The position numbers and the translations under genes were made by a program. Below are positions 12 to 34,716 of a stretch of 37,714 bases of DNA, piece by piece. The notes beneath the pieces were generated by a model. It did no database searches, was not told the origin of the DNA, and saw nothing but the letters and a program-made list of their open reading frames with translations. This stretch comes from Rhizobium sp. Q54 (GTDB lineage Bacteria; Pseudomonadota; Alphaproteobacteria; SHVV01). Position 1 is the stretch's first letter, and every line of letters starts with the position of its first letter. The stretch is taken from the NCBI GenBank assembly GCA_945903685.1, contig CAMDOQ010000004.1, forward strand, positions 1 through 37,714. Reading direction: 5' to 3'.

Positions 12-479
12 GTGCCGGCGCTCGCCGTCGTCATCGGCGACGTGCGCACGCTCGATTTGGTCTACAGCCAGCGGCTCGCGCTGGCGGCGCGGCGAAGCGG
101 GGTGGCGGCCCTGATCGTCCGCCCCGGGCTCGGCGGCGCGATGGCCGAGCCGAGCGCGGCGGCCATGGCCGAGCCGAGCGCGGCGGCAACGCGATGGTGG
201 GTGCGGACGGCGCCGGCTGCGGCGGTCGAACGGCCGGCGCCGCGCGGCATCGCTTGGGATCTCGATCTCGTTCGCGCCCGCGGCGGCGGCGGCGGGCGTT
301 GGCGCGTCGCCTGGCAGGGCGAGCGCTTCGCCGTGCTCGATCGCCGCGACGATCAACCTGCAGCCAGCGAGGTAGACCATGGCCCGGATCGTTTCGGTTT
401 GGCTCCCGTCCTTCGCCACCGACCGCCGGCACCGCACGGCGAGGTCGACGCCCGCGGCTTTTCCCGCCGCACCGGCTAA
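12..479 (+). CDS. imuA: ImuA-like (RecA/SulA-like mutasome accessory protein), C-terminal part, truncated by window start
   Basis: Translation PALAVVIGDVRTLDLVYSQRLALAARRSGVAALIV...W.LDLVRARGG; directly precedes and overlaps imuB. Confidence 0.75.
   Translation: MPALAVVIGDVRTLDLVYSQRLALAARRSGVAALIVRPGLGGAMAEPSAAAMAEPSAAATRWWVRTAPAAAVERPAPRGIAWDLDLVRARGGGGGRWRVAWQGERFAVLDRRDDQPAASEVDHGPDRFGLAPVLRHRPPAPHGEVDARGFSRRTG
141..188 (+). repeat. 24-bp perfect tandem duplication inside imuA (ATGGCCGAGCCGAGCGCGGCGGC[C/A])
   Basis: Two consecutive near-identical 24-mers, encoding MAEPSAAA twice. Confidence 0.9.
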
Positions 480-2139
480 GCCGTCCGCCGCTAAGCCGTT
501 CGTCGTCGTCACCGCCGATCATGGCGGGCTGCGCATCGCCGCGGTCGATGCGGCGGGCGAGGCCGCCGGTATCGTCCCCGGCATGGCGCTGGCGGACGCC
601 CGCGCGCTCTGTCCGGGCTTGGCCGTCGCGCCCGAGGATGTGGCCGGCGACCAAGCGGCGCTCCTGAAACTTGCCGCCTGGTGCGGCCGTTATACGCCCT
701 GGGTCGGTCCCGACCGCTTCGGCGACTACGCCAGCGGCCTCTTTCTCGATATCACCGGCTGCGCCCACTTGGTGGGCGGCGAAGCGGCGCTCCTCGCCGA
801 CCTCACCCGCCGGCTCGCCGGTCTCGGCATCGCGGCCCGCGCGGCCGTCGCCGACACGCCCGGCGCGGCGTGGGCGGTCGCCCGCTTCGTGCCGCCCGCG
901 GCCAACGTTCATCATCTGATCGTGCCGGCAGGGGCGACCGCGGCGGCGCTCGCTTCGCTCCCGGTCATGGGCCTGCGGATCGCACCCGAGACGGCGGCGA
1001 CGCTCGATCGCTTGGGCTTGAAGACGATCGGGACGCTGGCGCGCATTCCCCGTGCCGCACTCGCCGCGCGCTTCGGCGCCGGGCTGGTCGGCCGGCTCGA
1101 CGCTGCCTTGGGCTATGCGCGCGAGCCGATCTCGCCGCTCGAGCCGGCACCGGCGCTTCGCGCGAGCCTCGTGTTCGCCGAGCCGATCGCGCACACGGAC
1201 GGCGTCGCCCACGCGACCGAGCGGTTGCTGGCGGCGCTCATCGCCGATCTCGCGCGGGCCGCACTCGGCGCCCGCCGGTTGACGCTCGCGTTCTATCGCG
1301 CCGACGGCGAGGTGGTGTCGATCGCGATCGGCACCAGTCGGCCGACCCGCGACGTCAAGCACTTGACGCGGCTGTTCGCCGAGCGCTGGGCGCTGCTCGA
1401 TTTGGGCTTCGGCGCCGATGCCGCGGTGCTGGCAGCGACGATCGCCGAGCCGCTGCCGGCCGAGCAGATGACGTTCCGCGTCGCCCGGGGCGGCGCCGTC
1501 ACGGCGGCGACGCCAGAGGGGAGCGAGGGGAACGACGTCGAGTTGGCGGCGCTCGCCGATCGCCTCGGCAATCGCTTGGGCCTCACCAACGTCGTCCGAC
1601 CGCGCGCGGTCGCGAGCCACCTGCCCGAGCGGCGGGTGGCGTGGCAGGCGGCGGTGCGGCTCGCCGCGGCGGCGCCCGCTTCGCCGGCCGGGGTGCCATG
1701 GCCGGAGGCGCTGCCGCGGCCGCTCTGCCTGTTTCTCAAGCCCGAGCCGGTTGCCGTGGTCGCGCCGGTGCCCGACGACCCACCGGTCCTGTTCCGCTGG
1801 CGCAAGCGCGTCCATCGCATCGCCTGGGCCGAGGGCCCCGAGCGGATCGGTGCCGAGTGGTGGCGCGCGGCCGGACCGGCGCTCGCCGCCGCGCCGCTCG
1901 CGACCCGCGACTACTTCCGGGTCGAGGACGAGGACGGCCAGCGCTTCTGGCTCTATCGAAGCGGCCTCTACCGCACCGATCCGGCGCCGGTGATGGTGAT
2001 CGCGAGCCAGGACAGCGGCCCCGAAGTCCCGCATCGCGAACGGCGCGGTCCGCTCGCGTTCGCGCCGCCGCCTGCCGCTCCGCGGCCGGCCAGCCCGGCG
2101 TCGGGGCCGGCCTGGTTCCTGCACGGAATCTTCGCCTGA
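379..2139 (+). CDS. imuB: ImuB, catalytically degenerate Y-family DNA polymerase homologue
   Basis: MARIVSVWLPSFATDR...GDYASGLFLDITGCAHLVGGEAALL; lies between imuA and dnaE2. Confidence 0.9.
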   Translation: MARIVSVWLPSFATDRRHRTARSTPAAFPAAPAKPSAAKPFVVVTADHGGLRIAAVDAAGEAAGIVPGMALADARALCPGLAVAPEDVAGDQAALLKLAAWCGRYTPWVGPDRFGDYASGLFLDITGCAHLVGGEAALLADLTRRLAGLGIAARAAVADTPGAAWAVARFVPPAANVHHLIVPAGATAAALASLPVMGLRIAPETAATLDRLGLKTIGTLARIPRAALAARFGAGLVGRLDAALGYAREPISPLEPAPALRASLVFAEPIAHTDGVAHATERLLAALIADLARAALGARRLTLAFYRADGEVVSIAIGTSRPTRDVKHLTRLFAERWALLDLGFGADAAVLAATIAEPLPAEQMTFRVARGGAVTAATPEGSEGNDVELAALADRLGNRLGLTNVVRPRAVASHLPERRVAWQAAVRLAAAAPASPAGVPWPEALPRPLCLFLKPEPVAVVAPVPDDPPVLFRWRKRVHRIAWAEGPERIGAEWWRAAGPALAAAPLATRDYFRVEDEDGQRFWLYRSGLYRTDPAPVMVIASQDSGPEVPHRERRGPLAFAPPPAAPRPASPASGPAWFLHGIFA

Positions 2140-2310: not shown

Positions 2311-5300
2311 ATGCCCTACGCCGAGCTGCAGGCGACCAGCAACTTCTCGTTTCTGCGCGGCGCCGCACACCCCGAAGAGCTGGTGGTGCAGGCCAAGGCG
2401 GCGGGCTTGGCAGCGTTGGCGCTCACCGACCGCAATACGCTCGCCGGCGTCGTCCGCGGGCACTTGGCGGCCAAGGAAGCGGGCTTGCGCTACGTGGTCG
2501 GCGCCCGGCTCGATGTGAGCGACGGCGCGAGCGCGCTCTGCTTTCCCACGGACCGCACCGCCTACGGCCGTTTGGCGCGCCTCATCACGGTGGGGCGCCG
2601 GCGCGCACCCAAAGGCAAGTGCGAGATCGTCCGCGCCGAGGCCTGGGCGCACGGCGAGGGGCAGCTCTTCGTCGTGATTCCGCCCGCGGAGGTTGCCGAC
2701 GAAGCCGCCTTCGCCGCCGAGCTCACCGCCTGGGCCGATCATTTTCCCGGCCGCGTCTACTGCGCCGCGAGCTATCTCTATCGGGGCGATGATCGCGCCC
2801 GGCTCGCGCGGCTCAAAGCGATGGCCGATGCGGCGCGCGCGCCGCTCCTCGCCACCAACGACGTCCACTACCACATCCCGGCGCGGCGCCCGCTCCAGGA
2901 CGTGCTCACCTGCATCCGCGAGCACTGCACGGTCGACGACGCAGGCTATCGCCTGTTCGCCAACGCCGAGCGCTACGTGAAGCCGCCGGCCGAGATGGCG
3001 CGGCTCTTTGCCGATTATCCCGACGCGCTCGCGCGCACGGTCGAACTCGTCGCGCGTTGCTGCTTCGCGCTCGATGAACTTCGCTACGAATATCCGGACG
3101 TGAACGAGGAAGCGGCGCGCGATCCGCAGGCCGAACTCGTGCGGCTCGCCAGGGCCGGCGCCGCCGAGCGCTACCCGGGCGGCATTCCCGACAAGGTCAA
3201 GCGGCTGCTCGACCACGAACTCGCGCTGATCGGCCAGCTCGCCTACGCGCCCTATTTCTTGACCGTCCACGACACCGTCCGCTTCGCGAAAAGCCAGGAC
3301 ATCCTCTGCCAGGGCCGCGGTTCGGCCGCCAATTCGGCGGTCTGCTATTGCCTCGGCATCACCGCGGTCGACCCCGACCGCATCGACCTCCTGTTCGAGC
3401 GGTTCATCTCGGCCGAGCGCAACGAGCCGCCCGACATCGACGTCGACTTCGAGCACGAGCGGCGCGAGGAGGTGATCCAGTACATCTACGGCAAGTACGG
3501 GCGCGAGCGCGCCGGCTTGACCGCCGTCGTCATCAGCTACCGCTGGCGGAGCGCGATCCGCGAGGTTGCCAAGGCGCTCGGGCTTTCGGCCGATATCGGC
3601 GGCGCGCTCGCCGGCTACGTCTGGGGCCAGTCGAGCAGGGGCCTCGACCTCGCCCAGGTGCGCGAACTCGGGCTCGACCCGGAAGACGCGCGGCTCTGGC
3701 TCGCGCTCCGGCTCGCCAAGGAGTTGACCGGCTTCCCGCGCCACCTGTCGCAACACCCGGGCGGCTTCGTCATGAGCCGCGGGCCCTTGTGCGAAGTGGT
3801 GCCGATCGCCAACGCGGCGATGCCCGACCGCACCATGATCGAGTGGGACAAGGACGACATCGACGCACTCGGGATCCTGAAAGTCGATGTCCTGGGCTTG
3901 GGCATGCTCACCTGCATCCGCAAGGCGTTCCATTTGATCGAGCGCCACCACGGCCGCGCGCTTACCCTCGCCAACCTCCCGCCCGAGGACCCCACCGTTT
4001 ACGACATGCTGTGCCTGGCCGATTCGGTTGGCGTGTTCCAGGTCGAGAGCCGGGCGCAGATGACGATGCTGCCGCGCTTGAAGCCGCGCTCGTTCTACGA
4101 CCTCGTGATCGAGGTCGCGATCGTCCGCCCCGGCCCGATCCAGGGCGACATGGTGCACCCCTACCTTCGCCGCCGCTCGGGCCAGGAGCCGGTCGCGTAT
4201 CCCTCGGAGGCGCTCCGGAACGTGCTTGCCAAGACCTACGGCGTGCCGCTCTTCCAGGAGCAGGCGATGCAGATCGCGATCGTCGGCGCCGGCTTCGCTC
4301 CGGCCGAGGCCGACCGCCTGCGCCGCGCCATGGCGACCTTCCGCCGCATGGGCACGATCCATACCTTCCGCGAGAAGTTCATCGCCGGCATGATCGGCAA
4401 CGGCTACGAGGAAGACTACGCGGTCCGCTGCTTCAAGCAGATCGAGGGCTTCGGCGACTACGGCTTCCCCGAATCGCACGCCGCTTCGTTCGCGCTCCTG
4501 GTCTACGTCTCGTCGTGGCTCAAGTGCCACTACCCGGCGGCGTTCGCGGCCGCGCTCCTGAACAGCCAACCGATGGGCTTCTACGCCCCGGCCCAGATCG
4601 TGCGCGATGCCCGCGATCATGGCGTTCAGGTGCGTCCGGTCGACGTCAACGCGAGCCAATGGGACTGCACGCTCGAAGCGGCGTCCTCCCACCCGGCGCT
4701 TCGCGCCGACCTCCCCCACGAGGGGGGAGGGACAGAAAAAAAAGTCGCGCCGCTCCACCAAATAGCTGTCCCCCTCCCCTTGTGGGAGGGGGTAGGGGGA
4801 GGGGTCAAGGGCAGTCCCGCCTGGCGCGCACCCGAGGATGCACGGACCGCGCTCCGCCTGGGCTTGCGCGAAGTCAAAGGCTTGGGCGAGGCCGACGCAG
4901 CGGCACTTGCGGCCGCGCGCGCTGCGCTGCCCGAAACGCGCTTCGCCGACATGCACGAACTCTGGCGGCGGAGCGGGCTCAAGCCGGCGACGTTGGCGCT
5001 CCTGGCGGATGCCGATGCGTTCGGCTCGATGGGGCTTTCGCGGCGGAAGGCGCTGTGGGCGGTCAAGGGCTTCAAGGACTCAGCCCTCCCGCTCTTCGCG
5101 GCCATGGAGTCCCTCCCCCCTCAAGGGGGGGAGGGTAGGGAGGGGGGTAAGGAGAGGGGTGAAGGGGATGCGCTCTACACGAGTTCGATCGAGCAGGGGG
5201 CCGAACCCGCAGTCGACCTCCCGGTGATGCCGATCGGCGAAGAAGTCTTGACCGACTATGCGGCGATGCGCCTTTCGCTTAAGTCGCATCCGCTCGCGCT

Positions 5301-5847
5301 GTTGCGTCCCGCCTTGGCGCGGACGAAGCACATCCCGTCGGCGACGCTGGCGGACGTCGCGCCGGGCGCGCGGGTCAAGGTCGCGGGCCTCGTCATCAGC
5401 CGCCAGCGCCCGGGCACTGCGAGCGGCGTCATCTTCATGACGCTCGAGGACGAGACCGGGGTCGCCAACGTGATCGTATGGCCGCGCATGTTCGAGAAGA
5501 ACCGCAAGACCGTGCTGCGGTCGCGGCTCCTGTCGGTGACGGGCAAGGTCGAGCGCGAGGGGCTCGTCATCCACGTCGTCGCCGACCGGATGCGGGACGA
5601 GACCGCGCGGCTTTTCGATTTAGGCGAACTCGATTCGCTGAAAGGATTCGACGTCCGCCACGCCCACGCCCAACCCGCGCCCGCGACCGGTTACGCAACG
5701 CGACCGCTGGCGACCGGCGGCAACGCCAACAACGATCACTTGAAGATGGGATTTGTGGGCGGCCCCGCCGATCAGGCCGCGACCGGGCGGCCATCCGATC
5801 CCGGTACCGTCGCCCGTCGCCTGTTCCCGTCGCGGGATTTTCACTGA
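2311..5847 (+). CDS. dnaE2: Error-prone DNA polymerase DnaE2 (ImuC) with two in-frame low-complexity insertions
   Basis: PHP start MPYAELQATSNFSFLRGAAHPEEL, active-site DIDVDFEHERREEVIQY, C-terminus SRDFH; start chosen at 2311 by homology to the family N-terminus. Confidence 0.95.
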   Translation: MPYAELQATSNFSFLRGAAHPEELVVQAKAAGLAALALTDRNTLAGVVRGHLAAKEAGLRYVVGARLDVSDGASALCFPTDRTAYGRLARLITVGRRRAPKGKCEIVRAEAWAHGEGQLFVVIPPAEVADEAAFAAELTAWADHFPGRVYCAASYLYRGDDRARLARLKAMADAARAPLLATNDVHYHIPARRPLQDVLTCIREHCTVDDAGYRLFANAERYVKPPAEMARLFADYPDALARTVELVARCCFALDELRYEYPDVNEEAARDPQAELVRLARAGAAERYPGGIPDKVKRLLDHELALIGQLAYAPYFLTVHDTVRFAKSQDILCQGRGSAANSAVCYCLGITAVDPDRIDLLFERFISAERNEPPDIDVDFEHERREEVIQYIYGKYGRERAGLTAVVISYRWRSAIREVAKALGLSADIGGALAGYVWGQSSRGLDLAQVRELGLDPEDARLWLALRLAKELTGFPRHLSQHPGGFVMSRGPLCEVVPIANAAMPDRTMIEWDKDDIDALGILKVDVLGLGMLTCIRKAFHLIERHHGRALTLANLPPEDPTVYDMLCLADSVGVFQVESRAQMTMLPRLKPRSFYDLVIEVAIVRPGPIQGDMVHPYLRRRSGQEPVAYPSEALRNVLAKTYGVPLFQEQAMQIAIVGAGFAPAEADRLRRAMATFRRMGTIHTFREKFIAGMIGNGYEEDYAVRCFKQIEGFGDYGFPESHAASFALLVYVSSWLKCHYPAAFAAALLNSQPMGFYAPAQIVRDARDHGVQVRPVDVNASQWDCTLEAASSHPALRADLPHEGGGTEKKVAPLHQIAVPLPLWEGVGGGVKGSPAWRAPEDARTALRLGLREVKGLGEADAAALAAARAALPETRFADMHELWRRSGLKPATLALLADADAFGSMGLSRRKALWAVKGFKDSALPLFAAMESLPPQGGEGREGGKERGEGDALYTSSIEQGAEPAVDLPVMPIGEEVLTDYAAMRLSLKSHPLALLRPALARTKHIPSATLADVAPGARVKVAGLVISRQRPGTASGVIFMTLEDETGVANVIVWPRMFEKNRKTVLRSRLLSVTGKVEREGLVIHVVADRMRDETARLFDLGELDSLKGFDVRHAHAQPAPATGYATRPLATGGNANNDHLKMGFVGGPADQAATGRPSDPGTVARRLFPSRDFH
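4684..4815 (+). repeat. REPIN-like pair of inverted G/C palindromes inserted in frame in dnaE2
   Basis: CGGCGCttcGCGCCG (4695-4709), CCTCCCCC-acga-GGGGGGAGG (4710-4730), CCCCCTCCC-cttgt-GGGAGGGGG (4770-4792); outer GGGACAG (4729-4735)/CTGTCCC (4766-4772) shows the two units are in inverted orientation. Confidence 0.85.
5108..5150 (+). repeat. Second, single-unit G/C palindrome of the same family, in frame in dnaE2
   Basis: CCCTCCCCCC (5111-5120) tcaa GGGGGGGAGGG (5125-5135) followed by TAGGGAGGGGGGTAAGG. Confidence 0.8.
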
Positions 5848-33924: not shown

Positions 33925-34716
33925 ATGACGCCCCAGGGCTACCAGCCCGAGAACTTCGACTATCTCGACCTGCTGACCGAGACAGTCGACGGCGAACTCG
34001 TCGGCCGCGGTCCAATGGCGATCCCGCCCGCAGTGCTGACAGCGGCAGGGCATGGGCCTCGCGAAACGCGGTCGATCGTCGCCGCGATGGGCAACGTCGG
34101 CCTAGTCGATGGCTTGAAGGAATACGGCGACCTTCGTCGGCAGTGCTTGGCTTGTGTCGAAGGTCCGAAAGCGGTCCGCGACTGTGAGATCATCGATTGC
34201 CCGATCTGGCCCTACTGCCACGTTGGCACGAACTCGCCGCGCCAGATCCCGCGCCGCTTCGCACGCGCCTCGTCCTCGCACAATCGAGATGCTGGCTGCC
34301 ATCGAGAGATCAGGCACCCCCTCCCTACAGGGGGAGGGGGCTTTCCAACACCGACTGCCAATCATGAAAGGAGCGAGGACGCGCCTCGGTACCGCTCATT
34401 ACTTCGATGCCGCTTTCCACCAGTGCGCGAAACTGAAAGCCCCGGCAACAGAACCCGAGGCGGGCGTATGTCTTCAACACGGTGTCGAATGCAGGAATCC
34501 CGGCGCACCGCGGCAACCAAAAAGCGCCGAGCGCGATCCAGTGGAGCGCGCTCGGCGGGCTTCGGCTTGGTACTCGTCGCCGACGATTGGTATTACGCCG
34601 CTACCTTGGTTTCGACGAGTTTCCTCGCCTGGTCGGAGAGCTTGCCCGGGCCTTTGGTGACCTCGATCTTGCGGGGCTTCATCGCCTCGGGTAGCTCGCG
34701 GACGAGATCGATATAG
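33925..34716 (+). CDS. Small cysteine-rich hypothetical protein; only the N-terminal ~100 aa looks genuine, 3' end uncertain
   Basis: MTPQGYQPENFDYLDLLTETVDGELVGRGPMAIPPAVLTAAGHGPRETRSIVAAMGNVGLVDGLKEYGDLRRQCLACVEGPKAVRDCEIIDCPIWPYCHVGTN; frame then runs through a palindrome and antisense to hsp20. Confidence 0.45.
   Translation: MTPQGYQPENFDYLDLLTETVDGELVGRGPMAIPPAVLTAAGHGPRETRSIVAAMGNVGLVDGLKEYGDLRRQCLACVEGPKAVRDCEIIDCPIWPYCHVGTNSPRQIPRRFARASSSHNRDAGCHREIRHPLPTGGGGFPTPTANHERSEDAPRYRSLLRCRFPPVRETESPGNRTRGGRMSSTRCRMQESRRTAATKKRRARSSGARSAGFGLVLVADDWYYAATLVSTSFLAWSESLPGPLVTSILRGFIASGSSRTRSI
34317..34341. repeat. Related G/C palindrome outside dnaE2
   Basis: CCCCCTCCCTacaGGGGGAGGGGG, same arm composition as the dnaE2 inserts. 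Confidence 0.65.
34520..34557 (-). terminator. Rho-independent terminator of hsp20
   Basis: Minus strand: CGCCGAGCGCG-ctccactggat-CGCGCTCGGCG-CTTTTTGG; 11-bp perfect stem plus T-run, 36 nt after the hsp20 stop. Confidence 0.85.

Follow-up and report, generated by a model that had tools for sequence, protein, structure and literature searches.

The window, the whole 37,714-nt stretch of DNA analyzed here, carries a dnaE2 gene with an upstream Y-family polymerase-like gene. DnaE2 is a dispensable, inducible polymerase. The encoded protein consists of PHP, DNA_pol3_alpha, finger, HHH_6 and OB domains, as assigned by Pfam, and shares 93% and 83% sequence identity with its congeneric counterparts. 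G001 and G002 are the two congeners of the source genome (G000). The upstream gene may be called ImuB-like, given its position beside dnaE2. The main features of the locus are as follows.

379-2139, plus strand: Y-family polymerase-like gene (Pfam IMS, 9.3e-9), upstream of dnaE2
2311-5847, plus strand: dnaE2, error-prone DNA polymerase III alpha subunit (Pfam; ATG at 2311; 1178 aa)
4678-4842, plus strand: expanded tip of DnaE2 loop 1, aa 790-844 (protein alignments, AlphaFold and the HHH_6 match)
5111-5147, plus strand: second palindromic insert of dnaE2, located in the HhH-to-OB linker and made of one unit (repeat search; pLDDT <50 at aa 935-964)

Loop 1 connects two short beta strands (787-790 and 846-849) of the AlphaFold model (mean pLDDT 82, 59 sequences) and lies within the HHH_6 region, whose match spans aa 771-914 for a 90-position profile. 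The segment between the CTLE and LRLG motifs mostly contains 5-10 residues among 108 aligned DnaE2 sequences and contains 58 residues in the window protein. By this alignment, the window loop is about 50 residues longer than the commonest DnaE2 loops, in agreement with the initial annotation, which had estimated an insertion of about 45 residues. The comparison with other DnaE2 proteins supports the view that the DNA element encoding the expanded tip has been inserted. The AlphaFold model assigns pLDDT values below 50 to residues 794-833, residues 935-964 and the C-terminal tail. The first two segments coincide with the two inserts, which are thus predicted to be disordered and to lie outside the folded core. 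The dnaE2 sequences on both sides of the insert are under purifying selection, with dN/dS values of 0.110 upstream and 0.131 downstream of loop 1 against G002 and of 0.130 and 0.205, respectively, against G001.

The expanded tip of loop 1 is encoded by a palindromic element that is built from two inverted units.

4684-4806, plus strand: the whole element, two head-to-head units of a dispersed, GC-rich palindromic repeat in REPIN-like arrangement, in frame in dnaE2
4685-4693, plus strand: left tail remnant CCTCCCACC, inside the left tail part 4685-4709
4695-4707, plus strand: mini-hairpin GGCGCTTCGCGCC (GGCGC-TTC-GCGCC) of the left tail
4710-4735, minus strand: left unit with an 8-bp stem, CCTCCCCC/GGGGGAGG, and a tag on its inner side (CTGTC on the minus strand)
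4736-4765, plus strand: 30-nt spacer, A-rich at its 5' end
4766-4806, plus strand: right unit with the tag CTGTC, the stem CCCCTCCC/GGGAGGGG and the tail GTAGGGGGAGGGGTC

The left hairpin (4710-4730) reads CCTCCCCC-ACGAG-GGGGGAGG and is followed by GACAG, and the right hairpin (4771-4791) reads CCCCTCCC-CTTGT-GGGAGGGG. The inverted pair of G/C palindromes around an A-rich spacer, which the initial annotation had described as a REP-doublet layout, was confirmed in the sequence, and the dnaE2 frame is open all through 4684-4806, as it had also noted. However, GGGACAG (4729-4735) and CTGTCCC (4766-4772), which had been taken as the outer arms, constitute the inner pair that flanks the spacer, whereas CCTCCCACC (4685-4693) pairs with TAGGGGGAGGGG (4793-4804) on the outside. 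A near-identical mini-hairpin is present in one intergenic copy of the repeat in G002 (L129).

Could the palindromes have arisen by chance in an ordinary variable linker of GC-rich, low-complexity sequence, with no element inserted? Loop 1 is variable in length within the family, including non-palindromic variants of 20-30 residues (for example, L015, L053 and L073), and the exact-arm inverted-repeat score of the window loop, 10 nt, does not rise above the background of its own gene. However, this score allows one mismatch at most, and the window loop is left unflagged because its arms, which are 26 nt long and 81% complementary, carry mismatches. Furthermore, intergenic sites of the genome contain both the same composite unit, a stem with the tail GGTAGGGNGAGGGG, and head-to-head doublets, and a stringent pattern for the unit matches 5, 3 and 8 sites in G000, G001 and G002, respectively, versus 0 for the reversed control pattern. 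A chance origin is accordingly very improbable. Within the window, the right-hairpin pattern has three matches against a chance expectation of 0.04; two of them are the two strands of its own palindrome, and one is located at 34319. The latter belongs to a further GC-rich palindrome (34319-34339) that fits the unit pattern with three mismatches.

Short palindromic repeats are usually considered to be extragenic elements. A blastn search with the doublet identified an inverted pair in the same genome (C9:206-298). The covariance model R1 was built from 12 units of the genus, including those of dnaE2, so that the dnaE2 scores are not independent; the best match in the genus is the right unit itself (4766-4806, E 1.5e-7), with which R1 was built. 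R1 has 57, 14 and 105 matches at E<=0.5 in G000, G001 and G002, respectively, where G000 is a draft of 227 contigs with 86% completeness in which repeats may be under-assembled. The motif is thus repeated elsewhere in the genome, as the initial annotation had anticipated, and DnaE2 orthologues do not all carry a conserved non-palindromic peptide at the loop. Given that only 12 of the G000 matches are well matched (E<0.001), the family looks old rather than active. The genome-wide survey of copies consists of these searches and 20 fetched G000 regions, which were assessed using a codon-usage score trained on the Pfam-supported genes of the window. The two dnaE2 copies, used as positive controls, both scored as coding, with one frame running through the element. 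In 19 of the 20 further regions, no frame scored as coding on either flank of the element and also stayed open across it on the way to a coding flank, and in most of these the coding frames or strands differed between the two sides; the other region (C11 26772-26812) gave very weak coding scores. The copies elsewhere in the genome are intergenic wherever they can be judged, and the only intragenic copies among the sites examined are the two in dnaE2 (4684-4806 and 5111-5147). The copies occur as singles, head-to-head pairs and tail-to-tail pairs, which is the usual REP layout.

The element resembles several known systems. REPINs consist of two inverted REP units around a spacer, are capable of forming a single hairpin and are mostly extragenic (Bertels and Rainey 2011, PMC3116915). 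Likewise, the window element consists of two inverted REP units that form a hairpin, and its unit is repeated and predominantly extragenic. Unlike typical REPINs, the window copy is intragenic, and its mobility as a unit is putative. The RAYT transposase domain (Y1_Tnp, PF01797) was found in none of the three genus genomes, of which G000 is 86% complete, and is present in 5 of 14 control genomes, including Caulobacter. The REPIN assignment of the initial annotation therefore stands with respect to the inverted doublet layout and the repetition of the unit but not with respect to a RAYT partner, and the element is better described as REPIN-like than as a demonstrated REPIN. An association with RAYT was rejected for the genus (0 of 3), and it is not general among the 11 other hosts of inserts, only 4 of which have a Y1_Tnp.

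REPs of the CGTC superfamily have stems of 8-9 bp and loops of 4-5 nt and form head-to-head dimers, and the window units share this organization, with 8-bp stems, 5-nt loops and a head-to-head orientation. The superfamily tag is CGTC or TGTC/CCTC; the tag of the genus copies is TGTC at both window units and some other copies, and CTGC or none at others. However, the superfamily has a short CCA tail and stems whose first two pairs are A-T, and the window element has neither: its stems start with C, and its tail is GTAGGGGGAGGGG. The element also differs from the GTAG superfamily, which is defined by an unpaired GTAG tag at one end of the stem-loop. A GTAG string does lie on the 3' side of the right stem, but it leads into a tail that can pair with the upstream C-runs and is not a free tag. 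Rickettsia palindromic elements (RPEs) resemble the window insert in that they are in-frame palindromic inserts that add a peptide to functional alphaproteobacterial proteins; the window insert is in frame in an open gene that, judging from dN/dS values of 0.11-0.13 against G002, probably encodes a functional protein. RPE-4 and RPE-6 have been equated with CGTC REPs (Di Nocera et al. 2013, PMC3733652), and by description the window unit lacks the A-T stem ends and the CCA tail of such elements.

Loop 1 is also expanded in both congeners, to 28 residues in G002 and 30 residues in G001. Each of these expansions is encoded by a palindrome, and the sequences differ. The G002 loop contains a single palindrome, TCCTTCCCCTGCTTGCAGGGGGAGGGGG (reported sequence, CTTCCCCTGCTTGCAGGGGGAGGGGG), and the G001 loop contains another, CCCCCTCTCCCGATGCGGCAGGGGGAGGCTCGGGAGGGGG. 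On the 3' side, the flank K-G-S/D-P-A-W-R-A is common to the window and the congeners. The presence of different palindromes at one site indicates that the site was already occupied earlier in the genus and that elements have since turned over. All three species carry an element at loop 1, and no exact empty site was found within the genus, so the exact insertion junctions cannot be placed. The initial annotation had called the doublet domesticated, a description that the data do not support; we observed no sign of function in a segment that is predicted to be disordered and whose sequence is wholly different between congeners. The congeners also bear on an RNA-level explanation, in which the dnaE2 transcript forms a hairpin that would slow ribosomes or direct processing, the peptide being a mere by-product. 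The 161-nt segment is indeed predicted to fold strongly (-89.4 kcal/mol, z -3.5), surpassing 198 of 200 dinucleotide shuffles. However, the congeners contain single, different hairpins with no conserved structure, and REPs sit mostly between genes, downstream of coding regions (PMC3733652), which makes a role in the mRNA scarcely probable.

The second palindromic insert of dnaE2 (5111-5147) had been missed by the initial annotation. This element is common to the window and G002, and G001 has a doublet in its place. At the same site, the HhH-to-OB linker of L048 and L153 shows a non-palindromic expansion, the tandem peptide repeat LPAM.PLPAM.

How widespread is the insertion of palindromes into loop 1? 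Our class sample comprised 288 Alphaproteobacteria genomes, approximately 136 of which have a DnaE2-level match, and alignments are split at loop 1 in 16 of the 288 genomes. The fetched loops are palindromic or of the REP type in G118, G195, G276, G080 and G184, besides the source genus. Further palindromic inserts are present at loop 1 in L042, from a metagenome-assembled genome (MAG), L045 (Roseomonas genomosp. 6), L056 (Reyranella), L096 (Caulobacter), L101 (Jiella) and L105 (Erythrobacter); the same peptide is found in L042 and G080, which may represent one event. G269, a congener of G184, has a REP-type peptide at the loop that is cut by the contig end. The inverted-repeat arms measure 16-36 nt in five loops, compared with a maximum of 11-13 elsewhere in those genes. 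When the pooled loops were searched against 11 host genomes, 26-66 matches were found in 10 hosts and 6 in G276, and the matches listed fall mostly on the host's own loop, which indicates host-specific dispersed repeats. In total, loop 1 bears palindromic inserts in about ten further lineages, nearly all of them host-specific dispersed repeats. Most DnaE2 proteins have no insert at loop 1. Longer loops that are not palindromic, namely those of G011 and G137 (RKRWKTKPRHT type), G058, the HxRHAxM...H type, G177, G181 and G266, and G156, were set apart.

The replicative paralogue DnaE1 provides a control. A search of 192 class genomes with the corresponding DnaE1 region showed no comparable loop insertion among the 150 alignments listed, the longest of which covers 546 nt for 169 query residues, corresponding to at most 13 extra residues. 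The alignments listed include those of G080, G184 and G195, whose DnaE2 proteins carry inserts; about 40 lower-scoring genomes fall outside them, two of which (G017 and G018) gave a pair of weak matches, possibly a split alignment in each case. The control is therefore strong but not complete.

Based on these observations, we propose with considerable confidence that the window insert represents a dispersed, non-autonomous repeat (a REP-type doublet) of this alphaproteobacterial genus, copied in frame into a disordered DnaE2 loop, to which it adds about 50 residues as a tolerated passenger peptide. The repeat would spread in trans by some activity, and the doublet copy in dnaE2 would be transcribed with the gene and translated into the polymerase. 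In-frame landings would be kept where the loop is permissive and the polymerase is needed only under certain conditions, and out-of-frame or inactivating ones would be lost. In-frame copies may survive because the GC-rich units hold few stop codons and the loop tolerates additional residues. DnaE2 may be decorated repeatedly because it is dispensable and inducible and because its loop is far less constrained than that of DnaE1.

Alternatively, the insert could be adaptive, with a disordered Gly/Pro-rich loop beside the HhH altering DnaE2 activity or its interactions with ImuB or the clamp and thereby tuning SOS mutagenesis, along the lines of the mutator speculation of Di Nocera et al. The location of the loop within the HHH_6 region, the recurrence at one loop in about ten lineages and the repeated appearance of repair genes among REP-decorated genes (PMC3733652) would be consistent with such a role. 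However, the lineages have no peptide sequence in common, the congeners are wholly different at the site, and the flanks in the source genome are under ordinary purifying selection. Tolerance alone explains the recurrence, given that most DnaE2 proteins carry no insert, and we regard an adaptive insert as quite improbable. It is also unlikely that the DnaE2 loop is a true palindrome capture site across Alphaproteobacteria, arising either through favored insertion, by DNA-level targeting or the polymerase's own template switching, or through a selectable change in SOS mutagenesis.

Insertion of this kind has a precedent. REPs, many of them dimers, have been described in frame in DNA repair and replication genes, with DnaE2 named among them, and a mutator effect was speculated upon (PMC3733652). 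A REPIN-type pair in a translesion polymerase, which the initial annotation had considered less familiar, is thus ordinary in kind, and the interesting part is the recurrence. The reported cases represent the same kind of event with GTAG- or CGTC-tagged families, whereas the window unit lacks A-T first pairs, shows TGTC in some of its copies and carries a long tail, GGTAGGG.GAGGGG. Moreover, the reported REPs occupy different sites in genes of one functional category, recB excepted (PMC3733652), whereas one DnaE2 loop is hit repeatedly here. In the literature compared on DnaE2 with REP or palindromic repeats, only PMC3733652 is directly relevant; in-frame copies are not treated in RepRanger (PMC12306157), and some in-frame MITE examples are given for Coxiella, none in dnaE (PMC5896051). 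As far as the text of these papers extends, the recurrence at one loop and the contrast with DnaE1 are additions to the earlier report. Here, palindromic repeats have provided a mutagenic polymerase with new protein sequence again and again, each time a different sequence but at the same loop. With one loop of a single enzyme having received many independent inserts and a paralogue that is uninserted in the alignments listed as a control, nature has performed an experiment. Are the inserts neutral, or do they alter translesion synthesis?

Several other regions of DnaE2 are also expanded. A second recurrent site was observed in genus g226, where L211, L212 and L213 (G457, G467 and G330; three species with 7-9 Mb genomes) carry different REP-like inserts inside the HhH region after ...DGF.W.DEDEERLK, with arms of up to 19 nt (L213). 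L062 and L032 contain N-terminal insertions of 25-29 residues near window aa 131 (nt about 2704), with 14-nt inverted-repeat arms that exceed the gene background. In the window, the C-terminal tail of DnaE2 (5629-5830, L006), which is predicted to be disordered, contains GYATRPLATG, a short repeat in frame, of which G002 has a duplication.
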